DNA of 64,000 nt. It comes from Solobacterium sp. (lineage in GTDB: Bacteria; Bacillota_I; Bacilli_A; Erysipelotrichales; Erysipelotrichaceae). The notes beneath the pieces are model-generated. The model did not search any database and was not told the DNA's origin. It saw only the letters and a list, made by a program, of their open reading frames with translations. This document shows positions 12,002 to 26,366 of this stretch, piece after piece. The stretch spans positions 1 to 64,000 of the forward strand of contig JAFRMA010000071.1 of assembly GCA_017430925.1 (NCBI GenBank), in the 5' to 3' direction. How positions within the stretch are numbered: the first letter of the stretch is position 1; every line of letters starts with the position of its first letter. The position numbers and the translations under genes were made by a program.

Positions 12002-12811
12002 ATGTCTGTACTACATGTACGTTTCCGTTCCGAAGCTCTGGCAGGCAACGGAGAATTTTATCTTCATCTTCCGGATAAGGAGATTCCCTTCTTTCTCAAG
12101 GGTAATCCTTACTACGAACGTCCGGTGAAGACGCTCATCCTTCTTCACGGATACAGCGGTGATGCCACGGACTGGCTGTATAATTCAGCTGCTGCGGATT
12201 TTGCGATGAAATACAATCTTGCGGTGGTCATGCCCAGCGGTACGAACGGCTTCTATGTGGATAAGAAAGCGACCGGTCATCATTATGCCCAGTTTATCGG
12301 CAGAGATCTGATCAAGTATCTGCAGGATACATTCCATCTGGCAATGACAAAGGAAGATACGCTCATCGGAGGATTATCCATGGGTGGTTTCGGAGCCCTG
12401 CATACCGGTTTGATGTTCCCGGAGAAATTCGGAGGAATCATGGCTTTATCTTCAGCGTTAATTATCTATCACCTGAAAGACATGAAACCGAAAATGGCAG
12501 ACCCGGTCATGGCGAACTACGAATACTACGTGGATACGTTCGGAGATCTCTCCAAAGCAGAAAAGAGCGATCATAACCCGGAAGTACTCTTCCGCCGGAA
12601 CAAGCGTAAAGGAATCCAGAATCCGCCGATATACATGGCCTGCGGAAGTGAAGATTTCCTGCTTGACGTCAATCACCGGATGAGAGATTTCCTGAAGAAA
12701 CAGAAAGCGGTATTTACGTATTCCGAAGGTCCCGGTATTCATGACTGGAACTTCTGGACCCCACATGCGTACGAAGGTATTGAATACTTATTATCAATAA
12801 TGGAGGAATAG
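12002..12811 (+). CDS. Alpha/beta hydrolase, esterase D-like (PF00756 family)
   Basis: A 269-residue serine esterase of the esterase D/acetylxylan esterase group. The nucleophile elbow GLSMGGFG puts the catalytic Ser at residue 126; the acidic residue is probably the Asp of CGSEDFLLD and the His that of GIHDWNFW near the end. There is no signal peptide, so it is probably cytoplasmic. AAAGGAGAG lies upstream of the ATG. It heads a plus-strand operon divergent from the ABC lipoprotein gene, and the next gene starts three bases later. Likely job: release of acyl groups from imported sugars. The exact ester is unknown. Confidence 0.9.
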   Translation: MSVLHVRFRSEALAGNGEFYLHLPDKEIPFFLKGNPYYERPVKTLILLHGYSGDATDWLYNSAAADFAMKYNLAVVMPSGTNGFYVDKKATGHHYAQFIGRDLIKYLQDTFHLAMTKEDTLIGGLSMGGFGALHTGLMFPEKFGGIMALSSALIIYHLKDMKPKMADPVMANYEYYVDTFGDLSKAEKSDHNPEVLFRRNKRKGIQNPPIYMACGSEDFLLDVNHRMRDFLKKQKAVFTYSEGPGIHDWNFWTPHAYEGIEYLLSIMEE

Positions 12812-12814
12812 ATT

Positions 12815-14413
12815 ATGACAGATTTCGAACAGGCAAAAGTACAGGTCAAACAGGGCTGGCTTCAGGGTTACACCGAGGAAGGTGTAAAGATCTTTAAGGG
12901 TATCCCCTACGCGGCACCGCCGGTAGGTGCTTTACGTTTCCGTCATCCGCAGGATCCGGAACGCTGGAGAGGTGTGCGTAAGGCAACACAATACAGCGCG
13001 GCGGCGATCCAGCACGTGATGGAGATTGCGGATATGCCTGCCAACGTACATGGTGTACCGCAGTTCATGGCTCCTTCCCAGTATGAAGAAGATTGTCTTT
13101 ATTTGAATGTCTGGACACCCGCAAAAACTGCAGAGGATAAGCTCCCGGTATTTATCTGGATCCACGGCGGAGGTATGGTTGCGGGAAGCGGATGTGAGGT
13201 TGTATGCGACGGTATCGGCTTCGCAAAACGCAAGGATATCGTTGTCGTGACGATCAACTATCGTCTGGGATTCTTCGGCTTCTTTGCGCATCCGGAACTG
13301 ACTGCGGAAGCAGGCGGCACAAGCGGAAACTACGCGCTCTACGATATGCGTAAGGCATGTCTGTGGGTCAAAGAGAATATCGCGAAATTTGGCGGTGATC
13401 CGGATCGTATTACCGTTGCCGGGCAGTCCGGAGGCGCAGCCGGCACAGGTGCTCTGCACGCTTCTCCTCTGATGAAAGGTGTCATTCAGAGAGTATCCAT
13501 CGAAAGCGGACCGATCTACTGGGGATTCATGCAGCCGGGACCACGCAAAAAGATGGAAGATCTCGGTGTGGAATATATGAACTTTATCGGATGTAAATCT
13601 CTTGAGGAACTGCGCCGTAAAGACGCATGGGAACTCTTTGACCAGTATGAAGCGTTCCAGAAGTCCAAGGGAATCGGTCCGATGGGCTTTGGTTTCTCCT
13701 TCTGCATTGACGGAGAGTTCCTGCCGAAACCGTATTCCGAAATCATGGATAACGGTGAATTCAACGACTTTGATGTACTGATGGGTTCCTGCGCGCAGGA
13801 ATTCCCGGCAGTCAGAGCCAGCGAATACTCCGTGGAGAAGTTCCATGAATATCTGGAAGAAGCTTTCCCGGACAATGTGGAAAACATGAAGCGCTGGTAT
13901 CCGGCAGAAAACGGCATTGAAGCAGCGAAACAAGTATCCACGATTGCCAGTGATATCATGCTGCTGGGAAGCGCCAAACTCGGTGAACTCTGCCATGCGA
14001 ACGGAAAGAATGCCTATATCTGGCTGATGTCCAAAGAGAATGAAACCGAAAGAGGTCATAACGATGGTTCTCCGCACTGCGCGGAAATGCCGTATGTCTT
14101 CGGCAGAGTGGATCACGGAGAACGCAATCCGTTCTTCCCGTATCACTGGGTAGGCGCGGACTATGACTTCATGGAGCTCATTCAGGGCTACTGGTATAAC
14201 TTTGCGGCAACCGGTGATCCCAACGGGGAAAACCGTCCTTACTGGAAGAAATACGAAGACAAGTTCGATATCATCAACCTGAATAACCATTCGGATATGA
14301 TGCCGGAAGCACAGCAGGAGAAGTACCATTACTTCTACGAGAAACTCCAGAATAATAACTTTGTTGTATCCCTCTTCGGTCCCGCAAAATTCACACCGAA
14401 GAAAGAAGACTGA
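12815..14413 (+). CDS. Carboxylesterase, type B
   Basis: A 532-residue cholinesterase-fold carboxylesterase. The oxyanion-hole HGGG motif is present (WIHGGGMVAGSG) and the nucleophile sits in GQSGGAAG at Ser205. The catalytic His is probably in the GHNDGSPHCAEMPYVFG segment, where these enzymes carry it. Length is normal for bacterial members, and there is no signal peptide. It sits three bases behind the esterase gene and one base ahead of the DUF3237 gene, so the set is surely co-transcribed. A second type B carboxylesterase lies at 21280-22689. Substrates of such enzymes are broad and cannot be named here. Confidence 0.93.
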   Translation: MTDFEQAKVQVKQGWLQGYTEEGVKIFKGIPYAAPPVGALRFRHPQDPERWRGVRKATQYSAAAIQHVMEIADMPANVHGVPQFMAPSQYEEDCLYLNVWTPAKTAEDKLPVFIWIHGGGMVAGSGCEVVCDGIGFAKRKDIVVVTINYRLGFFGFFAHPELTAEAGGTSGNYALYDMRKACLWVKENIAKFGGDPDRITVAGQSGGAAGTGALHASPLMKGVIQRVSIESGPIYWGFMQPGPRKKMEDLGVEYMNFIGCKSLEELRRKDAWELFDQYEAFQKSKGIGPMGFGFSFCIDGEFLPKPYSEIMDNGEFNDFDVLMGSCAQEFPAVRASEYSVEKFHEYLEEAFPDNVENMKRWYPAENGIEAAKQVSTIASDIMLLGSAKLGELCHANGKNAYIWLMSKENETERGHNDGSPHCAEMPYVFGRVDHGERNPFFPYHWVGADYDFMELIQGYWYNFAATGDPNGENRPYWKKYEDKFDIINLNNHSDMMPEAQQEKYHYFYEKLQNNNFVVSLFGPAKFTPKKED

Positions 14414-14414
14414 T

Positions 14415-14828
14415 ATGAAGGATGAACCTGTCCTGGAGATCCGGATCGATATTGACAGACCCGGTCTGCGCATGGAAACCGAACGCGGAGAAGTATCCAT
14501 GATTCCCTTCTCCGGAGCAGCAGACTCAGATCTCTTTCACGGGATCGTTGAACCATGGGGTGTGGATACGCAGATATTAAATCATGCAGGTGTACGTCAT
14601 ATGTCTGCGCGGTATGTACTTACCGGGAAAGACAAAGACGGACAGGAATGCCACATCTACATCGAAAATAACGGATACCTGCCGAATGTCCCTTCCAAGG
14701 TCTTCAAGACTGTCCCGACATTTTATACCGACAGTAAGCTTCTGGCTCCGTATCTGCACTATGACCATTTCTACGGGATCGGCAGTGTGGAAGACGGACA
14801 GCTTTGGATACGATTCTACGAAGTCTGA
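14415..14828 (+). CDS. DUF3237-like protein
   Basis: A 137-residue soluble protein. The segment DLFHGIVEPWGVDTQ and the C-terminal HYDHFYGIGSVEDGQL resemble the small beta-barrel family DUF3237, whose function is unknown. I start it at MKDEPVL, one base after the carboxylesterase stop, because the longer frame lies inside that gene. Translation is probably coupled. It shares the operon with two esterases and precedes a Nif3-like gene, so a role in the same acyl-sugar route is likely. The family assignment is by motif memory only. Confidence 0.65.
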   Translation: MKDEPVLEIRIDIDRPGLRMETERGEVSMIPFSGAADSDLFHGIVEPWGVDTQILNHAGVRHMSARYVLTGKDKDGQECHIYIENNGYLPNVPSKVFKTVPTFYTDSKLLAPYLHYDHFYGIGSVEDGQLWIRFYEV

Positions 14829-14845
14829 CGATCATACAATAATGA

Positions 14846-14882
14846 AAAGACCAGATCCTGTACCCAGTGTCATCTGGTCTTT
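14846..14882 (+). terminator. Hairpin between the DUF3237 and Nif3-like genes
   Basis: An 11-bp perfect stem (AAAGACCAGAT with ATCTGGTCTTT) encloses a 15-base loop. Only a short T stretch follows, so it may attenuate transcription or protect the transcript end rather than stop everything. Confidence 0.55.
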
Positions 14883-14913
14883 GTTTGAAAACATAAGTAA
14901 AGGAGAAACAACT

Positions 14914-15726
14914 ATGACGATCCAAGAAATACTCGACAAGATCCTGGCTTATCATCCTGATCTCGGAGATAACCGTACATGCGATGTTGTCGTAGGCGCA
15001 GATCCGGACCGGGAATGCACAGGTATCCTGATTTCCATCGCCCCGACTGTTCCGGTCATACGGAAAGCTATTGAAACCGGTGCAAACTTCATCTTTGTGC
15101 ATGAGCCAACGTTCTGGAGCGGTTATGACGATGAATGTGAATGGCTGGAAGGAAATGATGTATATGAAGAGAAACTTAGTCTTCTCTTAAATAACGGGAT
15201 CACTGTTTACCGCGATCATGACCACATGCATGCGCACAGACCGGACGGGATCTTCCATTACATGCTGAAACACCTGGGCTGGCTGGAATACATGAAACCG
15301 GAAGCCAGAGGTTTTGAAATCGTTCTGCCGCCTACACGTTTGGGAGACCTCATTGCTCATGTGAAGGAACGCATGGGTCTTGAATATATCCGCTATATCG
15401 GCAACCCGGATGTGGTTGTCTCCACCATCGGATTCTGCGGACATCTCTTACCGGGTCCGGACAGCAACTGGTCCAATAACGCCCAGGTGGCAGCCAGCTG
15501 GAAATACGATGTCGTCATTCCGGGAGAAACCGTCGACTGGACCTTGCCGCTCTACATCCGTGACGCGGCGGATCTCGGAAGAGCCAAAGCCATGATCGTA
15601 CCAGGTCACTTCGTCTCGGAAGAAGCCGGTATGCGTCTGGCCGAGGAATGGCTGAGACCGGTCATCGGTGATGATGATTTGCCGATCACCTTCTTTGCAG
15701 CAGGTGATATGTGGAAATACGCCTGA
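14914..15726 (+). CDS. Nif3-like dinuclear metal-centre protein (paralog 1)
   Basis: A 270-residue member of the Nif3/GTP cyclohydrolase I type 2-like fold. The family's early metal-ligand segment appears as FVHEPTFW (His63), a His-rich stretch DHDHMHAHRPD follows, and the C-terminal ligands are in PGHFVSEEAG. The start MTIQEIL has AAAGGAG nine bases upstream; an in-frame extension of 110 residues upstream is noise through the hairpin. The biochemical role of the family is unresolved. A close paralog lies at 26363-27232, also beside esterases, which suggests a metal-dependent hydrolase in the same pathway. Confidence 0.8.
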   Translation: MTIQEILDKILAYHPDLGDNRTCDVVVGADPDRECTGILISIAPTVPVIRKAIETGANFIFVHEPTFWSGYDDECEWLEGNDVYEEKLSLLLNNGITVYRDHDHMHAHRPDGIFHYMLKHLGWLEYMKPEARGFEIVLPPTRLGDLIAHVKERMGLEYIRYIGNPDVVVSTIGFCGHLLPGPDSNWSNNAQVAASWKYDVVIPGETVDWTLPLYIRDAADLGRAKAMIVPGHFVSEEAGMRLAEEWLRPVIGDDDLPITFFAAGDMWKYA

Positions 15727-15758
15727 TCTATACCAAGGTATCTTCAGTAAATCATCAG

Positions 15759-15787
15759 GACAGATGGTTGTTCCGTCTGTCTTTTTC
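15759..15787 (+). terminator. Rho-independent terminator of the esterase/Nif3 operon
   Basis: A 9-bp stem (GACAGATGG with CCGTCTGTC, one G-T pair), a five-base loop and five T make a textbook terminator 32 bases after the Nif3-like stop. Confidence 0.88.
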
Positions 15788-15887
15788 TTGTTCAGAATTC
15801 ATTTTCAAAAATCTTCTGCTCCTATTCAAATGTAAAGATTCCCTCCCTTCCCTACAATGGATTTAAAGAAGCGAAAAGGAGGACACT

Positions 15888-17570
15888 ATGTCTGCACTAA
15901 GAACTGTCATTACCACAGAAACCAAGACCGGCGGATATCTCACCTCTCTCTTGATCGATCAGAATGAAGTCCTGGTATACCAGCCGAAGGATCTCATGGA
16001 GTCTGACATCATCAACCACGGGTATTCCGCACCGTTATTGTTAGTATTCGGTGAAGGGAGATTCACCGGACAGGAAGCAGTCAGTTATGCCGAAGAGACA
16101 AAACTTGCGCAGATTGCGCAGGAAAACGGAGGGACAGTGATCTTTGTCAATCCGAAGGATACCTGGGATACCGAAGAAGAAGGTGTCTATGAACGTGTAT
16201 TATCCAAGGCGAGAGTAAGTCAGTGGGGATTCTCCCACGGGATTCTCTACGATGAAAAGATCCCGCACAACCGCTTTGAGGAAATGGCGATGAAACGTCC
16301 GGGATTTGATCCGGTTCCGGAATATTTCATCTTTGGTTCTCCGGTTGCGACCTATGTGTATACCAAAGGTGCCGGAGCAGATTACTTTGCGCGTTATTAT
16401 CTGAAGGAAGTCAAGGGACAGAATGCCATGGGTGATCTGGGGTTTGCGGATATCACCATGACAGCAGTCACTCTGGAGAATCTCTCTGTACTGCCGGAGG
16501 TTACCTGTAAGGACGTATCCATCGTTTCCGTGAATAACAGCGAAGAGATCAACCGTGTGCTGCTCGCTTCGGATAACCGTACAGCGGTATGTGATACGCT
16601 GGATGTTGTGGCGCAGTATGACGCATATATCGGCGATTATAAGCGCTGGGCAGGAAAGATACGCAAATCCGTAAATTACCGCAAGGAAGGCATCATTATG
16701 CGTCCGCAGAGAATGTTTGTACAGACTTCACCAGACAACGTGGCGCCAAAAGTAACACGTCCGGAACATGAGGTTGGTTATGTGCTCTTCTACGGAAAAG
16801 ATCTGGACCTGCATGATCCGGAACATCCGGTTCCCCTGCTGTTGTGCTTCCATGGCGGCGGAGATACAGCGATTGCGACGGCGATCATCGGGCAGTGGCC
16901 GGAAATTGCCAGAGAAAACGGATTTATCCTCTGTGCTGTGGAAATGCACCTGGAAGTTACAGCTACAGAGACCTTGGAAATCGTCCGCAAACTTGAATCA
17001 GAATACGCCATCGACAAAAGCCGCATCTATGTGACCGGTTTCTCCATGGGCGGAATCAAGTCCTGGGATTTCTGTCAGGAATATCCGGAGGTCATTGCTG
17101 CGGCAGCACCGATGGATGCGACGGTGGATGTCGGAGAGAACACGCAGTTTACCAAAGCCTGGAAAGTAAATCAGGATATCCTTGTGCCGGTCTTCTACAA
17201 CGGAGGAGAAGAATCCCCTCTGGCAGAAACCGCTTATCAGGAAGGGAAATGCATGAACCGCTTCCGATATACCTTCAAGATCAACTGTGTAGTCAAACCA
17301 TACGACTGCAGGTTTGAGGAAAGAGACCAGTGGGAAGATAAATTCTACGGTGTATCCGGAGATATCACGGAAGTTCTGCATGATCCGGATTTCCCGATGA
17401 GTGAAACAACCGTACGCTATTACCGCAGCGATGATGGCAACATTTATACCGCCTTCTGTTCCATCAGCAATCATAAACACGAGATCCGTCCGTTCACCTG
17501 CCGTCTTGCGTGGAACTTCCTGAAACAGTTCCGCAGGAATGAACAGGGAGAGATCGAAATCACCGCATAA
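15888..17570 (+). CDS. Two-part esterase with C-terminal alpha/beta hydrolase domain
   Basis: A 560-residue protein. The C-terminal half is an alpha/beta hydrolase like the feruloyl esterase/polyhydroxybutyrate depolymerase group: an oxyanion segment CFHGGGD near 325, nucleophile GFSMGG with Ser386 and a late His in ISNHKHEIRP. The N-terminal 250 residues contain a second region (FTGQEAV, then FIFGSPVATYVY) that looks like another degenerate hydrolase-type lobe, which I cannot place. There is no signal peptide. It has its own GGAGG site and is flanked by terminators, so it is a single-gene unit. The substrate ester is unknown. Confidence 0.8.
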   Translation: MSALRTVITTETKTGGYLTSLLIDQNEVLVYQPKDLMESDIINHGYSAPLLLVFGEGRFTGQEAVSYAEETKLAQIAQENGGTVIFVNPKDTWDTEEEGVYERVLSKARVSQWGFSHGILYDEKIPHNRFEEMAMKRPGFDPVPEYFIFGSPVATYVYTKGAGADYFARYYLKEVKGQNAMGDLGFADITMTAVTLENLSVLPEVTCKDVSIVSVNNSEEINRVLLASDNRTAVCDTLDVVAQYDAYIGDYKRWAGKIRKSVNYRKEGIIMRPQRMFVQTSPDNVAPKVTRPEHEVGYVLFYGKDLDLHDPEHPVPLLLCFHGGGDTAIATAIIGQWPEIARENGFILCAVEMHLEVTATETLEIVRKLESEYAIDKSRIYVTGFSMGGIKSWDFCQEYPEVIAAAAPMDATVDVGENTQFTKAWKVNQDILVPVFYNGGEESPLAETAYQEGKCMNRFRYTFKINCVVKPYDCRFEERDQWEDKFYGVSGDITEVLHDPDFPMSETTVRYYRSDDGNIYTAFCSISNHKHEIRPFTCRLAWNFLKQFRRNEQGEIEITA

Positions 17571-17594
17571 TAATAAACAAACAGTTCTGACAAA

Positions 17595-17630
17595 GGTGCT
17601 GTACCTCCCAGGAGATACAGCATCTTTTTT
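17595..17630 (+). terminator. Rho-independent terminator of the 560-residue esterase gene
   Basis: The GGTGCTGTA/TACAGCATC stem, with one G-T pair and further inner pairing, is followed by six T, 24 bases after the stop codon. Confidence 0.88.
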
Positions 17631-17657
17631 CTTCCACATGACCACATCGTATATATG

Positions 17658-17716
17658 TTCACTTAAAGTTCACACAACATTCAAGTGCACTTCATGTTAT
17701 CTGATTAGACTATATA
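17658..17716 (+). promoter_or_regulatory. Four 11-bp-spaced TTCA repeats (Pho-box-like) plus -10 of the VTC operon
   Basis: TTCACT, TTCACA, TTCAAG and TTCATG begin at 17658, 17669, 17680 and 17691, exactly 11 bp apart. Tandem hexamers on an 11-bp period are the hallmark of PhoB/PhoP (OmpR-type) binding sites. The last repeat takes the -35 place ahead of TATATA at 17711. Phosphate-responsive control of a polyphosphate-polymerase-like gene would make sense, but which regulator binds is inferred. Confidence 0.6.
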
Positions 17717-17740
17717 AGTCAACTTGAAAGGAGGTGCGGA

Positions 17741-18433
17741 ATGGAACAGGAAAAACACTACAGACATGAGCTCAAGTATGCCATCCCCTATGGTGACTAT
17801 CTTGCCATACGCAAGCGTTTACAGAAGATCATGACCTCTGATTCGCATGCCGATTCATCCGGGTTATACCGTATCCGAAGTATCTATTTCGACAACAGTG
17901 ATGACAAGGCTCTCAGAGAAAAGGCCGACGGAATCGCAAAGCGCGAGAAATTCCGTATCCGTTACTACAACGATGACTTCTCGTTCATCACTCTGGAGAA
18001 AAAAATGAAGATCAATAACCTGTGTCTGAAATATGACGCGCAGATCACGGAAGAAGAATGCCGGAAGATCGTGAACGGAGATCTTGGTTTTATGAAGGAA
18101 CATCCGCAGGAACTGGTCAGGGAACTGTATGCCAAGATGCAGTATCAGCGTCTTCGTCCTCGTGTACTGGTCTCCTATGTCCGTGAGCCCTATATCTATG
18201 CGCCGGGGAATGTCCGTGTCACCTTTGATTCCCAGATCCGGACCACCCTGTTCCATCAGGAATTTCTGACAAAACAAGTATCCGATATCAGCGCAACAGA
18301 TACACCGCAGGACATGTTTCTTGAAGTTAAATATGACGCGTTTTTACCGGAAATCATACAGGATCTGATCCAGATCCCCTGGATCCGGCAACAGGCCTTT
18401 TCCAAGTATGGTGCGTGCCGCAGGTTTGGTTAA
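17741..18433 (+). CDS. VTC-domain protein (polyphosphate polymerase-like)
   Basis: A 230-residue soluble protein matching the VTC domain, the tunnel-shaped catalytic domain that makes polyphosphate from ATP in yeast Vtc4. Basic and acidic strand motifs are present in order: RHELKY (8-13), YRIRSIYFDN, REKFRIRYYN, LEKKMK and, near the end, FLEVKYD. The C-terminal SKYGACRR is also typical. AAAGGAGG precedes the ATG. It is first in a three-gene operon with a DUF4956 membrane protein and a CotH-like kinase, a set that recurs in bacteria. Bacterial members are poorly tested, so the activity is inferred from the family. Confidence 0.88.
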   Translation: MEQEKHYRHELKYAIPYGDYLAIRKRLQKIMTSDSHADSSGLYRIRSIYFDNSDDKALREKADGIAKREKFRIRYYNDDFSFITLEKKMKINNLCLKYDAQITEEECRKIVNGDLGFMKEHPQELVRELYAKMQYQRLRPRVLVSYVREPYIYAPGNVRVTFDSQIRTTLFHQEFLTKQVSDISATDTPQDMFLEVKYDAFLPEIIQDLIQIPWIRQQAFSKYGACRRFG

Positions 18434-18454
18434 TAAGTAAAGGAGGAAAATCAA

Positions 18455-19126
18455 ATGACATTCGGCGATATTTTCAAATCTAGTTTTCTGGAGAGTATAA
18501 CAGAGTTTTCTGCAGTGGATACACTGATCGGCATGTGTTTTGCGCTGGTTATCGGATTATTTATCTTTGAGATCTATAAGAAAACGTTCAGCGGGATCAT
18601 GTATTCCAACGGTTTCGGTATGTCTCTTGTCGGATTAGCTCTGGTAACGACGCTTGTGATCATGGCAGTGACTTCCAACGTTGTATTATCCCTCGGTATG
18701 GTCGGTGCCCTTTCAATCGTCCGTTTCCGTGCTGCCATCAAAGAACCAATGGAGATCGTCTTCCTGTTCTGGTCACTTGCGGTCGGTATTGTCATCGGTG
18801 CCGGAATGATCCCGCTGGCAGTGATTGGTTCTGTCATCATCGGCTTGATCCTGGTTCTGTTTGTAAGTAAGAAAATCACCAATACTCCGTATATTCTGAT
18901 TGTGAACTGCCAGGGTGAAAACGCTGAAGCAGATATGCTGAATATTCTCAAGAATTCTGCGGAAAAGTATATCGTCAAGTCAAAAACAGTAAACGATGCC
19001 GGGATTGAATTGACAACGGAGATTCGTGTAAAAGATACAGATACAGGCTTTGTCAATCGTATTAATGAGCTCGCCGGTGTTTCCGGTGCCACTCTGGTGA
19101 TGTTTAACGGGGAATACATGTCCTGA
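18455..19126 (+). CDS. DUF4956 membrane protein
   Basis: A 223-residue membrane protein with about four helices in the first 150 residues and a cytosolic domain of about 75 residues after them. The conserved core LSIVRFRAAIKEPMEI, between helices 2 and 3, marks DUF4956, a family of unknown function found beside VTC-domain genes. The tail (NCQGENAEADMLNILK and following) looks like a small ferredoxin-like fold. It follows the VTC gene by 21 bases with a strong AAAGGAGG site. It could pass the VTC product across the membrane or anchor the enzyme; neither is shown. Confidence 0.88.
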   Translation: MTFGDIFKSSFLESITEFSAVDTLIGMCFALVIGLFIFEIYKKTFSGIMYSNGFGMSLVGLALVTTLVIMAVTSNVVLSLGMVGALSIVRFRAAIKEPMEIVFLFWSLAVGIVIGAGMIPLAVIGSVIIGLILVLFVSKKITNTPYILIVNCQGENAEADMLNILKNSAEKYIVKSKTVNDAGIELTTEIRVKDTDTGFVNRINELAGVSGATLVMFNGEYMS

Positions 19127-19140
19127 GGAAAGGAATCGTC

Positions 19141-21232
19141 ATGGCTGCAAACAAACATATAACGAAAGTAATCATCGCACTTATGGCCGCAGCCGTCGCA
19201 CTGTGCTTCCTCGCAATCGGATATTCCGGCAAATTAACGGAACTGGCCGGCGGCCTCGGTGTCCGGATGGAATATGAATCGAAACTCTTTGATACGGATG
19301 AAGTCATACAAATAGATATTCAGATGGATGAAGACACATGGAATGAGATGCTTGACAATGCCATGGCGGAAGAATACTACGTCTGTAACGTCGTCATCAA
19401 CGGGAAAAGAGTAAACAATGTTGCTATCCGTCCGAAAGGAAATACCAGCTTGTCGGCAATCGCGATGGATCCTGAAACAGACCGGTACAGCCTGAAACTG
19501 GAGTTTGGTCATTATGTGAAAGGACAGACTTGTTTCGGTCTGGATAAACTGATCCTGAATAATAACTATGCCGATGCCACAAATATGAAGGAAGCCATCA
19601 TCTATGATATGTATCAGTACCTCGGTGCGGCATCTTCCCTGTACAACTATGCGGAAGTATCCGTCAACGGAGAATACTGGGGTGTATATCTGGCCCTGGA
19701 AGGTGTGGAAGACAGTTTCCTTCTCAGGAACTACGGAGCCCAGGATGGTGAGTTATACAAACCGGATAGTATGGAGATGGGCGGCGGTAATTCCTCTTCG
19801 GGCTCTTCCATGCCGAATATGGGAAACATGGATTTCTCCAACTTCGACATATCGGACTTCAAGGATATGACTCCTCCGTCCGGTGAAGGTGGTTTCTCCT
19901 TCGGAGGCGGTCCGTCTCAGGAAGAAAGCAGTGACAGACCTTCCGGTGATTTCTCCGGAGGTAACTTCAGTTTTGATCCGAATAATATGCCGGATACGGG
20001 TGATTCCCGGCCTTCGGGCTTTGGCGGCTTCTCCATGGGAGGCGGCGGAGCTAACCTGAATTACACAGATGATGATCTGGACAGTTATTCCACGATCTGG
20101 GAAGGCTCAGTCACAAAAACCAGTAAATCTGATCATAGAAAGGTCGTAACTGCTCTGAAGAATATCAGTGAGGGAACGGATCTGGAAACTTACCTGGATG
20201 TGGATAATATACTTAAATATATGGCTGTACATACCTTTTCGGTAAACATGGACAGTCTCTCCGGTTCCATGGCGCACAACTATTATCTTTACGAGTATGA
20301 TGGTCAGCTGAATCTGTTTCCCTGGGACTATAACCTCTCTTTAGGCGGAATGTCCATGGGGAGTGATGCGAATGCGACGGAGATGATCAATGACGCTATT
20401 GATACTCCATTCTCCGGCACTAAGTTCTTTGACGCCTTGCTTGAAAATGAAGAATACCTGACACGGTACCATGAGTATTTACAGCAACTGGTGGATGAAT
20501 ATGTGAACGGCGGACGGTTTGATGAAGTATATAACCGGATCAGGAATCAGATTGATTCTCTTGTGGAAACCGATCCCACCGCATTCTACCCGTATGATGA
20601 ATACCAGACGGCAGCAGACATCCTGTATGAGACTATCAAGTTACGTGCAGAAAGCATTGACGGGCAGCTGGATGGTACGATTCCTTCCACGGATGAAGGT
20701 CAGCGTCAGGATTCCTCCTCACTGATCGACGCATCACATATCGATATTAAAGCAATGGGTCGTTTCAATATGGGCGGTAGCTCCGAAGGTGACTTCGGAC
20801 GTTCCGATAAGATAAAAAAAAACTTGTTTCCCGGGATCCTCCAATACAGCAGAGGAAAACGGTCAGATGCAGGAAGGCGGTATGCCTTCCGGAATGCCTG
20901 ACGGGTTTGATCCGGGGAATATGCCGGACCAGTCCGGCGGAGAAAACACCCCGGGTATGAGTAATTTCAATCCCGGATCCATGCCGGATATGGGCGGCTT
21001 TACACCTCCCGGTTCAAGTGATTCTTCAGCGGATGTTTCCCAGAGTAAGCCGGATAGTGAGATGCCTGCAGGATTCCCTTCTGGCGCAGGAAATGAGCGC
21101 CCCTCCTCCTTCTCCGCTATGCCGGGACAGTCTTCCCAGGCAAAAACCAGTAATCTGATCACATACGGAATATGCCTGGCAGGAATGATCACAGCACTTC
21201 TGATCGTAACCCGGGTCAAGCGTAGAAGATAA
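19141..21232 (+). CDS. CotH-like kinase, frame-broken at a run of nine A
   Basis: A membrane-bound, outward-facing CotH-type protein kinase. An N-terminal helix (residues 9-29) is followed by CotH signatures RPKGNTS, RYSLKLEF, NNNYADATNMKEA, VNGEYWGVYL and, near 395, FPWDYNLSLGG. A low-complexity Gly/Ser/Met/Pro insert lies at about 218-300. As written, the frame stops at 20901 after 586 residues. The next frame (to 21232) continues the same Gly/Pro/Met composition, then a transmembrane helix and a KRRR tail. Removing one A from the run at 20814-20822 joins them into about 696 residues. Slippage, phase variation, mutation or a read error are all possible. Confidence 0.85.
20814..20822 (+). 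repeat. Homopolymer of nine A inside the CotH gene
   Basis: The run spans codons ATA AAA AAA AAC. With eight A the frame runs on into the 3' reading frame. Such runs are prone to polymerase slippage and to sequencing error. Confidence 0.9.
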
Positions 21233-21236
21233 TATA

Positions 21237-21266
21237 AAACAGGAGATCTCAGGATCCCCTGTTTTT
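21237..21266. terminator. Terminator between convergent CotH and carboxylesterase genes
   Basis: The AACAGG/CCTGTT stem continues, after one mismatch, into GATC/GATC around a four-base loop, with five T on the plus strand and A-rich sequence on the other side. It may serve both convergent genes. Confidence 0.75.
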
Positions 21267-21279
21267 CTTTGAATACGAT

Positions 21280-22689
21280 TTATTTGCCGGACTGACGTAT
21301 GATTTCTTCCCGGAGTTCTGTGAGCTTTCCGCTGGTGATCTCATCATAGTCATCCATATGGCACCCTTCCCTGCACAGTGTCATGCTCAGGTGTCTTTCG
21401 TCGTATGGTTTCCATACGGATAATCCTTCACCGTTGGGATTTCCTGTCCCTGCGAAATTCGCCCAGTATTTCTGCATTTCTTCAGACAAACGCCAGTCTT
21501 CACCGGTATAGGGTCTCCAAGACCCATCCAGTGTTCCGAATTGGTAACGGTTGTCGCAGGAATGCGGTGTTCCGGCATCGTCTCCCGGCTGCGGAGCGTC
21601 AAAGATATAGTGATATACCGGTTTCTTTCCGTTTCGATACATTGTTTTCGCAAAAGCTGTACTCTGGGCAGCGAGGTTTGAGCCGAACATCGGCGGTTTC
21701 TCACTGATACCTTCATCCACCGTACAGCCGATAATGATATCCAGGTCATCCAGTTTTCCCTTAACGATCATCTGGTCGATATCCTCCGGAAGAACATAAC
21801 CGTCTGTATACAGGTTGAATCCGTTAAAGAACCCCAGTGTATCGTTGGCATCCCGCAGTGTTTCCGCACTGAGTCTGCGCATCTCCGCAATATTCCGGCA
21901 TCCCAGCATCCGCATGAAATCGATGCCTTTCTGTTCCTGTTGTTTTCGTGTAGTACTTCCCATTACGGAACCGATACCGCCGGCCGACTGCACGGAGATA
22001 CGGCGTATACTGTGTTCACTGAGCGGGGAACATACAGCCGCAAGCGCACATCTGCCCCCTGCCGACTGTCCGAATACCGTGATGTTCTCCGGATCTCCGC
22101 CAAATGCACGTATATTATCCCGGACCCACTTTATCGCCGCAATCTGATCCATCAGACCGTAATTTCCGGAAGAATCGTGACCGCTTTCTTCCGCAAGTTC
22201 CGGATGTACATAGAAACCGAAGATATTCAGCCGGTAAGTAACCGAAATCAGGATACATCCCTGCCTGCAGAAAGCATCTCCACAGTATTCATAGTCTGAT
22301 CCATACCACTGCTGGCATCCTCCGCCGTGAATATAGATCATCACCGGGAGATTCGACTCCGGTGTTTCTGCCGGAGTATAGATATTCAGATACAGGCAGT
22401 CTTCGCTCATCTCCGGAGGATACGGATAATTTGGAATCAGGATATACGGATGCCCGCTGTCGTCCGTGACATCATCCACAGCTTCTGTCCAGCGGTCATA
22501 CTGCATACATGCAGGTCCATAGGTATCTGTCACGCGTATTCCCTGCCAGGATTCAGGTTCTTGAGGGGCTTTCCAGCGTAGTTCTCCTGTTGGTGCTTTC
22601 GCATAGGGAACACCGCGGAAAAGCGTGTAGCCCGCATTGGAGGATACACCCTGCAGGATTCCGTATTTTGTCTGTACTTCTCTGATCAT
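21280..22689 (-). CDS. Carboxylesterase, type B (second copy)
   Basis: A 469-residue cholinesterase-fold carboxylesterase, shorter than the copy at 12815-14413. The oxyanion motif IHGGG is near residue 120 and the nucleophile is Ser209 in GQSAGG. The C-terminal region carries the expected acidic and His segments (TVDEG and AGTPHSCD). There is no signal peptide. It starts four bases after the GH13 gene, whose stop lies in its ribosome site, and it is last in a seven-gene operon. It probably removes an acyl or methyl ester from a sugar processed by the neighbouring enzymes. Confidence 0.93.
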   Translation of the reverse strand: MIREVQTKYGILQGVSSNAGYTLFRGVPYAKAPTGELRWKAPQEPESWQGIRVTDTYGPACMQYDRWTEAVDDVTDDSGHPYILIPNYPYPPEMSEDCLYLNIYTPAETPESNLPVMIYIHGGGCQQWYGSDYEYCGDAFCRQGCILISVTYRLNIFGFYVHPELAEESGHDSSGNYGLMDQIAAIKWVRDNIRAFGGDPENITVFGQSAGGRCALAAVCSPLSEHSIRRISVQSAGGIGSVMGSTTRKQQEQKGIDFMRMLGCRNIAEMRRLSAETLRDANDTLGFFNGFNLYTDGYVLPEDIDQMIVKGKLDDLDIIIGCTVDEGISEKPPMFGSNLAAQSTAFAKTMYRNGKKPVYHYIFDAPQPGDDAGTPHSCDNRYQFGTLDGSWRPYTGEDWRLSEEMQKYWANFAGTGNPNGEGLSVWKPYDERHLSMTLCREGCHMDDYDEITSGKLTELREEIIRQSGK

Positions 22690-22693
22690 CCGA

Positions 22694-24358
22694 TCACTCC
22701 TGTGTTATCGTATAGGTTTCTTTCTCAAAGTCCACATCCAGGGATACAGTGCCGTAAGCATTTCTCCATGTGATCTTCAAATAGGTTTCAACACAGTGTA
22801 CCGTGATCTCCGCATCTTCCGAGAATACCGGACATGTGTTGCGGAAACGCAACAGATCGAGCTGTTTCTTCACGATATCCTTTTCCAGAAGTTGTTCCGC
22901 TTCTTCAAGAGAGAGATTTGTCCGGTTGATCTCCTTATGTCCTCCGGGACCTGCTTTCCGCATGGCTTCATAGTCATTCTTTCCCGCAAAGAGATCCAGA
23001 TACCAGATCTGCGGTTTGCCCGGCATGAAGAGTTGAATCGCTCTTGCCAAAAGCATTCTCGCGTCACTTTCGCCCAGCGCGCTGTAATACGTCGCGTTGA
23101 CCTGGTAATAGACGTTCTTTGCGCCGTGCAGATCCTTGACATAACCGCCGCGGCCAACCACGGTATCAATCAGTGTCTGGATATCATCTTCCGGTAATAA
23201 TCCCTTGAGATCCAGCAGAGGAATTCCGTCATGGCATCCCAGCATGTTTACGGTACGGATATGGTTCTCAATGATCTCATCTGCCCAGGCTTTCAGGTAT
23301 ACGCCGTTCCTGCGGATAAACGCGTCAATGATCAGTCCCGGAAGGAAGAAGTCATAGACCATATATCCCTTCTCTGCCAGTAACTGATATGTCTTTTCTC
23401 CGTAACTCGCATGGATTTCCGGCAATAATGTCAGTCCGTATTCCGAAGCGATACTGTCGATCTTTCCCAGCAGATCCCAGGTTCCGGGATCATTCAGGAA
23501 ATTTCTGGCACCCGGTTCTTTCGGCGCGTAGGCAAACGCATCCAGACGGACGATCGCCACACCGTAATCCGAAAGCTTCTTCAGTGTTTCTCTGTAGTAT
23601 TCCCAGACCAGAGGAGACTTGATGTTCAGATCCATCTGTCCCAGATAACTGCGCTTCGCTTCCAGCTTTTCTCTCAGTTCAGGCGCATACTTCTCGTATG
23701 GTCCGAATCCGATTTCTGCCGGTGTCTTCTTCTGCTTCAGCGCTTCATTGACGATCCTGCATACTTCTGTGGCTGTTCCGTACTGCATGCCGAGATCTCT
23801 GACCAGTTCCAGAGGGTCCAGAGGATTGTAGATCACTTCCTGGTAGAACGTATTCCAGTACGGGACATCTCTTCCGTCCGGGAAACGTACCATCAAGATC
23901 GGCAATCCGGCTTTGCGGAAGAACATGTCCTTGATGATCTCGGGATCCGGCTGGATATATCCTCCTTCGGTCATTGTCCCGTGACCTTCCCAGAAACGGT
24001 TCCAGTCAATGAAGAAGTCCCTGTATGGTGATTCTTCCCCGTTGCGGATAATATCCTGGAACTGGCGGGAAAGCACAGAAATATGATTGAGGATGAAATC
24101 CATCAGAAGATCGATTCCGAGTTTGTGCAGATCTTCAATATCTTTCGGATCAGCCAGGGTCTCGGAGATCTCATAATCGATCAGGGAGAAGCCCCGGTCT
24201 AAATCGGTATTGAATACACTTGGCAGGATATAGAAAGAACGGAATACATCTTTGAATTCCTCTTTCTGCAGTAGAGAGACAATATCGGATAACCTTCCCC
24301 CGACACTGTCCGGGTAGGCGTTCAGCATTGTACCAATGCCCATTTTCTTCTGTTCCAT
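22694..24358 (-). CDS. GH13 sucrose-phosphorylase-like enzyme
   Basis: A 554-residue alpha-amylase-family protein. The four conserved regions read DFILNH (His92), VRLDAFAYA (nucleophile Asp273), LLPEIH (acid/base Glu314) and GCHDGIP (His376-Asp377). The HDGI form in place of HD-N/Q is typical of subfamily GH13_18, which holds sucrose, sucrose-6-phosphate and glucosylglycerate phosphorylases. Such enzymes split the glycoside with phosphate to give alpha-glucose 1-phosphate. I place the start at MEQKKMG with AGGAG five bases away. The adjacent P-loop kinase could phosphorylate the second product; the acceptor sugar is unknown. Confidence 0.85.
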   Translation of the reverse strand: MEQKKMGIGTMLNAYPDSVGGRLSDIVSLLQKEEFKDVFRSFYILPSVFNTDLDRGFSLIDYEISETLADPKDIEDLHKLGIDLLMDFILNHISVLSRQFQDIIRNGEESPYRDFFIDWNRFWEGHGTMTEGGYIQPDPEIIKDMFFRKAGLPILMVRFPDGRDVPYWNTFYQEVIYNPLDPLELVRDLGMQYGTATEVCRIVNEALKQKKTPAEIGFGPYEKYAPELREKLEAKRSYLGQMDLNIKSPLVWEYYRETLKKLSDYGVAIVRLDAFAYAPKEPGARNFLNDPGTWDLLGKIDSIASEYGLTLLPEIHASYGEKTYQLLAEKGYMVYDFFLPGLIIDAFIRRNGVYLKAWADEIIENHIRTVNMLGCHDGIPLLDLKGLLPEDDIQTLIDTVVGRGGYVKDLHGAKNVYYQVNATYYSALGESDARMLLARAIQLFMPGKPQIWYLDLFAGKNDYEAMRKAGPGGHKEINRTNLSLEEAEQLLEKDIVKKQLDLLRFRNTCPVFSEDAEITVHCVETYLKITWRNAYGTVSLDVDFEKETYTITQE

Positions 24359-24365
24359 AGTTCTC

Positions 24366-25274
24366 CTAAAAGTCTTCCGGTGACATGAATTCACCGCTCT
24401 TGGATAAGATGATCTTTGCGTATTTTGCCCGCTCTGTCAGTTCTTCCTGCTCGATTTCCAGAACCATTGTCGTAAAATCCGAATCGGTCTTTCCGTCACG
24501 GGCACGTAATCTGCGATGTTCTCTGGTTTCTTCCGGTGTGGAATTCAGCAGTACCGGGATGTCGATCCCGTTGATATTTCCATTTCCTCCGTGTGTCCAT
24601 TCCAGAATCAGAACATCGGTTTCCGTAAGATCTACGGGGTCATACCAGCGTGCTTCTTCACTGCGCCCCATACGCTTGAAGTATATCTGGTTCTTCCCCT
24701 CCCTGAATGCCTGCAGGATCGCGTTGACTTCATCGTAATCCTGTTCAAGTCTTGTGCCGAGATACCCTTTCAAAGCTTTTCTTCCGGCTTCCTGGTAGGA
24801 TTTCAGCCAGGGATATTCTTCTCTTCGTTTCGGATCGGGATCTTTCTCCGTTTCCCAGAGAGAAGAGAGTTCCTTCTGTACTTCTTCGTTATATTGTCCG
24901 GAAGAAACCAGTCCCTTGAGTCCGTTGGCGCGGAAGATGGAGAGACGTTCAGCATCGTTGTACAGAGGGATGCGGAACGGATAGTTGTCTCCGGACATGA
25001 CATAGGTTCCTATCCCGCATTCATTCAGGTAATACGCCAGCAGAGACGCAATCTCACTCTTCCCTACTCCGGATCCTCCGAATACCGAAACAACAGCACG
25101 TTCCGTACCAAGTGCTTTCAATTCTTCAAGTAAGACCGGGAAGATCTTCTCTGCTTTATGTACGTGGGTTTCATCAATGCGGATCTTATCCCCAGGCATA
25201 TCTCCGTGCGGCAGGTTCTCCGCAAGTTCGGGGAATCCCCGGAATTCCAGGTTTTCCAGTTTTTCTTTTAACAT
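24366..25274 (-). CDS. P-loop kinase (uridine kinase/APS kinase-like)
   Basis: A 302-residue soluble ATPase or kinase. A P-loop GGSGVGKSE lies at residues 66-74, and the following SGDNYPFRIPLYND resembles the substrate loop of uridine kinase/phosphoribulokinase relatives. A likely Walker B strand is VLILEWTHG. A basic RRLRARDGKTDSDF segment near 260 could form the lid. Databases often label similar proteins adenylylsulfate kinase, but nothing here points to sulfate metabolism. Flanked by a GH13 phosphorylase and a sugar deacetylase, a sugar or sugar-acid kinase is more plausible. Confidence 0.7.
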   Translation of the reverse strand: MLKEKLENLEFRGFPELAENLPHGDMPGDKIRIDETHVHKAEKIFPVLLEELKALGTERAVVSVFGGSGVGKSEIASLLAYYLNECGIGTYVMSGDNYPFRIPLYNDAERLSIFRANGLKGLVSSGQYNEEVQKELSSLWETEKDPDPKRREEYPWLKSYQEAGRKALKGYLGTRLEQDYDEVNAILQAFREGKNQIYFKRMGRSEEARWYDPVDLTETDVLILEWTHGGNGNINGIDIPVLLNSTPEETREHRRLRARDGKTDSDFTTMVLEIEQEELTERAKYAKIILSKSGEFMSPEDF

Positions 25275-25277
25275 GTT

Positions 25278-26366
25278 TTACTCCTTCACCGTTTTGCGGA
25301 TAAAGGCTGCCAGTTCTCTTCCCATACGTTCATGGGACTTCGCAGACGGATGTCCGGCTGCCCCGAAGCCTTCCATCATCACGATCACCGGGATGAACTC
25401 GAAACAGAAGAGTTTCTCGTCTCCTGTTTCTTCCTTGAGTTCATTGACCACATCACGGATCCGGTGATAGAGATAGTAATCGATCGATCCGAGGGAACAG
25501 ATGATCACGGTATCGGGACCGTTCAGTTCACGTACTTTCTTCACGAATTCCTTATAGCGGTCATGGAACCAGAGTTCCATTCCTTCAACCGCATTGAAAT
25601 CCCGGTAGAAACGAATCGGATTGGCATCGTTTGTCCCGAGATTCAGGACGATGACATCATTCTTGTGTGTATGAAAATCCCACTTCGTGAGTTCCCTGCC
25701 GTGTTTTGTTTCATAGAGTTCATCGGTATATTCGTAGATATCTTCCATGGCATGCATAGGCCAGAGAGGATGTTCCGGCTTCGCTGCGTTGATTCCGGAT
25801 TCCGCGATCACGGACCACTCATATCCCAGTTCGCGGGCTGCCAGAGCTTCATAGGTGATCCATCCGTTTTCTTCCGATGTCTTGAACTCAAAAGAATTAT
25901 TCGGTGATTCATTGCCGAAGCCGCAGGTAATGGAATCTCCGATGATCTCCATGACCGGTTTCTTTTCTTCCGGCAGGTCCAGGAATTCACCGTCGGTGAC
26001 CACATCTGCCAGCCCCAGTTTCCCGCGGGCATTCTCCGAAAGCTTGATCAGACGCAGATCCACAGTCTTTTCTTCTTCACTTTCGTATACGGTGAGCCAT
26101 TGTTCGGGTTCTCTGCATTCATGGCGGTATATGAGTTCATCACCAACTGCCGCCCCCAGACACGGCCAGTCTGCCGGAGGCTGAGGCATACCCGGCATCG
26201 CAGCGATTTGATCCGGCTCCGCATACACACGCACTTTGAGCGTTTTTCCGCGGAAACGGACAGTAATACCGGTACATGTCCAGTTCATGTAAAGAGCGTT
26301 CTTTTCCTCATCGTACAACGTTCTGCCGTGGATCCGGCATTTCGGTAAGAGTTCTTTTATCTTCAT
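25278..26366 (-). CDS. SGNH/GDSL hydrolase, CE2-like acetylesterase
   Basis: A 362-residue esterase. The N-terminal 135 residues look like the beta-sandwich domain of CE2-type acetylxylan esterases (WTCTGITVRFRG). The SGNH domain follows with block I GDSIT (Ser145), the GTNDAN block and the catalytic His in AAGHPSAKSH near 335. There is no signal peptide, although CE2 enzymes are usually secreted, so it may act on imported acetylated sugars. Its ATG overlaps the Nif3-like stop as ATGA and the kinase follows three bases later, so translation is tightly coupled. Confidence 0.88.
   Translation of the reverse strand: MKIKELLPKCRIHGRTLYDEEKNALYMNWTCTGITVRFRGKTLKVRVYAEPDQIAAMPGMPQPPADWPCLGAAVGDELIYRHECREPEQWLTVYESEEEKTVDLRLIKLSENARGKLGLADVVTDGEFLDLPEEKKPVMEIIGDSITCGFGNESPNNSFEFKTSEENGWITYEALAARELGYEWSVIAESGINAAKPEHPLWPMHAMEDIYEYTDELYETKHGRELTKWDFHTHKNDVIVLNLGTNDANPIRFYRDFNAVEGMELWFHDRYKEFVKKVRELNGPDTVIICSLGSIDYYLYHRIRDVVNELKEETGDEKLFCFEFIPVIVMMEGFGAAGHPSAKSHERMGRELAAFIRKTVKE

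Follow-up and report, generated by a model that had tools for sequence, protein, structure and literature searches.

The locus analysed here lies in a 64-kb stretch of DNA (hereafter the window) from Solobacterium sp. It holds three closely spaced genes on one strand, which encode a VTC-domain protein, a DUF4956 membrane protein and a CotH-type kinase (the trio), and they are preceded by a tandem array of short repeats. Pfam matches bear out the assignment of all three genes in the initial annotation. The positions of all features are given in Table 1.

Table 1. Features of the trio locus, numbered from the first nucleotide of the window
Feature	Position	Strand	Basis or remark
Operator, four 11-bp units: TTCACTTAAAG TTCACACAACA TTCAAGTGCAC TTCATGTTATC	17658..17701	+	Sequence, pattern searches
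-10 element TAGACT	17706..17711	+	15 nt after start of fourth TTCA
Ribosome binding site aaaggaggt	17727..17735	+	Sequence
VTC-domain protein, polyphosphate-polymerase fold, 230 aa	17741..18433	+	PF09359, 2.7e-38
DUF4956 membrane protein, 223 aa	18455..19126	+	PF16316, 5.2e-10
CotH-type kinase, N-terminal signal anchor	19141..20901	+	PF08757, 1.5e-58
Run of nine A, where CotH and membrane-anchor tail frames part	20814..20822	+	Sequence
Out-of-frame CotH continuation	20823..21232	+	Met/Pro/Gly-rich linker, C-terminal TM, RVKRRR anchor
Trio and carboxylesterase gene (- strand)	17570..22698		Missing from same site in sister species G060

The VTC protein has no predicted membrane segment. A single-sequence search with it gave no match in the PDB, and a profile was required to reach VTC4: the family profile built from 22 relatives matched the yeast VTC4 structure 3g3q with an E-value of 1.3e-9. 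Its charged residues are invariant across the 22-sequence alignment, so that domain and conserved tunnel residues are both present (PF09359, alignment, VTC4 match). The protein is a predicted polyphosphate polymerase and would synthesise polyphosphate. For the DUF4956 protein, the AlphaFold model (pLDDT 78) combines a helical membrane part with a C-terminal ACT/MgtC-like domain. The top Foldseek match of the model was the MgtC C-domain 2lqj, a weak match with an E-value of 1.4e-3, and the sequence also matched MgtC weakly (NF007431). The CotH protein aligns with 5jd9, the structure of a B. cereus CotH family spore coat protein (E-value of 1.4e-10), and the alignment covers the HNY.LY and PWDY kinase motifs. 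A membrane segment is predicted at residues 10-28, and because this is an N-terminal anchor, the catalytic part is predicted to face, and probably faces, the outside.

The initial annotation extended the operon to position 21232. The trio itself stands, while the end of CotH had to be corrected, as its frame stops at 20901. A C-terminal membrane anchor is in frame with CotH in many orthologs, and some orthologs end naturally without it. The run of nine A may mark a genuine frameshift or a place of slippage, or it may stem from an error in the assembly. Programmed slippage at a conserved A run was considered and found unsupported, as orthologs lack the run of nine.

In several genus trios (L224-L227) the third gene encodes, instead of CotH, a Cthe_2159 protein whose N-terminal anchor is similar. 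The genome analysed here also has a second VTC-DUF4956 pair (contig C30; L233:12423-14394). Downstream of it a small secreted protein resembling Cthe_2159 is encoded, and the TTCA promoter pattern gave no match at this pair. Between positions 12002 and 27232 the window trio lies among numerous genes of esterase type (COesterase, esterase D-like, GDSL), together with two that are NIF3-like.

The flanks corresponding to 14400-17569 and 22699-25300 are about 72 bp apart in G060, a sister species, so that the trio and the carboxylesterase gene were either acquired in the present genome or lost from the other. The window trio proteins are about 80% identical to proteins of rumen Lachnospiraceae and others and about 53% identical to those of genus relatives. 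Because the identity is higher outside the genus, these comparisons favour a gain of the segment in this lineage.

The array was described in the initial annotation as four TTCA units spaced 11 bp apart, and this is exact: the TTCA starts are at 17658, 17669, 17680 and 17691. The four-unit pattern, searched with up to two mismatches, matched once in the window without any mismatch (0.05 expected). The three-unit pattern has just three separate sites in the whole genome (2.7 Mb), and the reversed control gave 0. With its layout, and standing where a -35 element would be, the array is an operator that follows the OmpR/PhoB site plan, as had been proposed.

Eighty related loci, chosen by similarity to DUF4956, were compared. 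Most of the relatives are metagenome bins whose taxon names may be wrong; the order of the trio is the same nearly everywhere. The exact triple TTCA was found in none of the trio promoters of these 80 loci, and its one match, in L076, is elsewhere. Taken at face value this would count against the array, and that reading was overturned once the promoters were aligned, as the units read TTTCAGG. The aligned ortholog promoters mostly carry TTTCAGGTTCATTTCAGGTTG and otherwise TTTAAGGTTCATTTAAGG, usually 60-65 bp upstream of the start codon; the last two units of the window array fall into line with this operator at 62 bp. Thus the array predicted for other VTC-DUF4956-CotH promoters is there, with varied unit sequence: TTYAR units at 11-bp spacing occur in 41 of 70 non-redundant ortholog promoters, and every other spacing in nine or fewer. 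In the promoter alignment, about a third of the orthologs have no recognisable array. For 32 of 47 ortholog promoters the best -10 element began 15 nt downstream of the last TTCA. In the same genus, the TTCA array is also present before the more distant trios, where three or four of its units can be recognised. A script placed the -10 element in register in four of the five genus promoters tested, and in the fifth (L135) a triple TTCA with TATAAC is in register by eye.

In many relatives a candidate regulator is encoded next to the trio. Directly upstream of it and on the same strand, 36 of the 80 loci encode an OmpR-type regulator together with a histidine kinase. A strong operator match (16/20 or better) precedes 10 of 37 trio-linked regulator genes, usually 54-59 bp from the start codon, while weak matches precede a few others; most promoters of these genes, for example in Butyrivibrio, have no operator. 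The strict pattern TTYARGTNNAYTTYARGT gave 22 matches in 22 genomes, about one per genome, with 1 in the control, most of these genomes having been selected for carrying the site at their trio. Its matches are nearly always at the trio, and the other two clear sites precede a response regulator gene (G001) and an HtrA gene (G016). Three-mismatch matches near a Butyrivibrio GDSL gene were rejected, their positions being inside the gene.

The genome carrying the window trio is 94% complete and encodes six OmpR-type regulators. For the regulators, every NCBIfam match was below the cut-off. Among the six, only the regulator on contig C52 has the TTCA array before its own gene. The spacing TTCA-N7-TTCA is kept in the promoters of 29 of 30 genus orthologs of this regulator. 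In ten genus genomes the longer pattern TTCA-N7-TTCA-N11-TAnnnT gave 79 matches against 15 in the reversed control; 10 of the 79 stem from two repeats that are present in copies within a single genome, and several matches sit inside genes. Among the intergenic targets of these ten genomes, an HtrA protease recurs in 8 and a secreted Cthe_2159 protein in 7 (Pfam-confirmed). The pattern appears to mark a small regulon consisting of an autoregulated OmpR-type system, HtrA, Cthe_2159 and the trio. By this pattern the C52 regulator is the likely binder of the window array; since it shares only about 30% identity with the regulator linked to the trio, its link to the array in this genome is drawn from the likeness of the sites.

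Our preferred reading, to which we give a probability of about two in three, is that a phosphorylated OmpR-family regulator binds the array and that the trio belongs to a small envelope-stress regulon resembling CiaRH, with the C52 pair as the likely regulator here. Binding to the tandem repeats that replace the -35 element would switch on the operon. In the many relatives that have it, the regulator pair next to the trio would do the switching, and in the present genome, in which no ortholog of that pair was found, the conserved autoregulated C52 pair would take this role and, by its sites, would also control the HtrA protease and the secreted Cthe_2159 protein. The inducing signal would be envelope damage, as deduced from HtrA and from CiaRH. 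In this scheme VTC would link phosphate into a polymer on the inner side of the membrane, with DUF4956 serving it as membrane partner or conduit, and the part of CotH would be to modify targets at the surface. The binding regulator in this genome, the signal and every biochemical step are what we infer; the site with its geometry and conservation, the neighbouring genes and the shared sites can be read directly from the DNA.

The alternative that survives best keeps an OmpR-type regulator as reader of the operator and replaces the C52 regulator by another, encoded elsewhere in this genome or on the missing 6%; the envelope regulon would then hold for the relatives. The absence of the trio segment from the sister species lends it some weight, as the promoter may retain a foreign operator, and the best match to the trio-linked regulator in this genome is just 37% identical. 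On the other hand, the array fits the TTCA sites of the host and not the TTTCAGG sites found at Lachnospiraceae trios, and it also occurs in genus members whose trio is more distant. We regard this alternative as possible, though unlikely. A bolder extension of the preferred reading, which we hold to be improbable, would make the trio a self-contained, envelope-stress-induced surface phosphorylation module with its own sensor and regulator in many relatives, in which VTC would make polyphosphate on the inner side of the membrane, DUF4956 would export it and the outward CotH would use polyphosphate in place of ATP to phosphorylate targets on the surface or in the matrix.

The initial annotation had instead taken the array to be phosphate-responsive. 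If so, a PhoB/PhoP-type regulator would bind it and the operon would make polyphosphate in response to phosphate supply. The 11-bp tandem plan is indeed common to the array and Pho boxes, the trio concerns phosphate polymers, and a PhoB/PhoR-like pair adjoins a Na/Pi cotransporter on contig C9 of this genome. However, comparison with pst promoters spoke against this reading. PstS was found above the cut-off in 11 of 60 genus genomes, and the promoters were read in ten of the eleven (L313 was left out). TTCA-N7-TTCA occurs in none of these ten promoters, while TTTACA occurs in nine, in L312 and L315 as TTTACA-N5-TTTACA; these elements are likely to be the Pho box of this genus. In five of the genus pstS promoters (L305-L315) a TTTACA pair lies 34 bp apart. 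The genome itself gave no PstS match and no PstB match above the cut-off, its PhoB-like gene has no array before it on its own strand, and the motif was absent from the PstS loci of trio-bearing Lachnospiraceae genomes. Lastly, the other targets of the array are HtrA, Cthe_2159 and a different regulator. Of the two observations that the initial annotation named as refuting it, absence of the array from orthologous operons does not hold, whereas its absence from pst promoters does. For these reasons control by phosphate is considered very unlikely. The idea that no regulator reads the repeats, which would then be a product of chance or the decayed trace of a promoter feature, finds some footing in the ortholog promoters that lack them; it is hardly credible given spacing and -10 register conserved over many genera and near-unique occurrence per genome.

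The trio is widespread and nearly unstudied. A dedicated two-component system and an operator in common with htrA would place it in an envelope-stress response, and a candidate regulator, a site and sister targets can now be named for it.

The closest parallel to the proposed regulation is streptococcal CiaRH. CiaR binds TTTAAG-N5-TTTAAG, with the -10 element ten nt after the last hexamer, and its targets include ciaRH itself and htrA (PMC3091779, PMC8317062). The sites described here resemble this box in sequence and have the same 11-bp direct repeat and the same -10 position ten nt past the last hexamer, and some ortholog sites read exactly TTTAAG-N5-TTTAAG. In addition, the regulator genes carry their own box (29 of 30 for the C52 type, 10 of 37 strongly for the trio-linked type), and htrA is a target in 8 of ten genus genomes and in one Lachnospiraceae genome. 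In contrast, most sites here read TTTCAG or TTCAC, and in the recognition helices, the sole region compared and by eye, L016 (VVWTHIGFVRKKL) and C52 (TLDTHIKLLRKNL) differ from CiaR (VVEVYVSKVRKKL). As the comparison of the regulators covered the recognition helices, the system is likened to CiaRH and not classed as CiaRH. The VTC-CotH trio was not found as a CiaR target in the portions of the CiaRH literature seen.

PhoP/PhoB Pho boxes resemble the window array in having 11-bp tandem repeats that replace the -35 element, and differ from it in sequence, with TTTACA at genus pstS and TTCA here, and in targets. With the yeast VTC complex the window protein shares the VTC catalytic domain and conserved charged residues. 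However, the membrane partner of this predicted enzyme would be the MgtC-like DUF4956, where that of yeast is VTC1, and the third protein is CotH.

As a gene set, the trio is already known beside streptococcal Pel clusters. CotH, polyphosphate polymerase and DUF4956 are accessory genes of Gram-positive pel clusters, in S. intermedius SIR_1592-1594, where SIR_1592 is characterised as MgtC-like and as having an ACT domain (PMC7112168, PMC12345266). Deletion of the DUF4956 or CotH gene there led to less aggregation and changed Pel levels, whereas loss of the polymerase gene is not reported to have affected them, which counts against the preferred reading (PMC12345266). The window trio unites the same three families in one cluster. 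It is not beside pel genes, however, its neighbours being esterases and others, and it is led by its own operator, while the trios of relatives are often led by their own two-component system. Thus, in contrast to the S. intermedius study, which reports that the arrangement is not found outside the Pel locus (PMC12345266), the trio appears as a module outside pel clusters, and what is new is its regulatory wiring.
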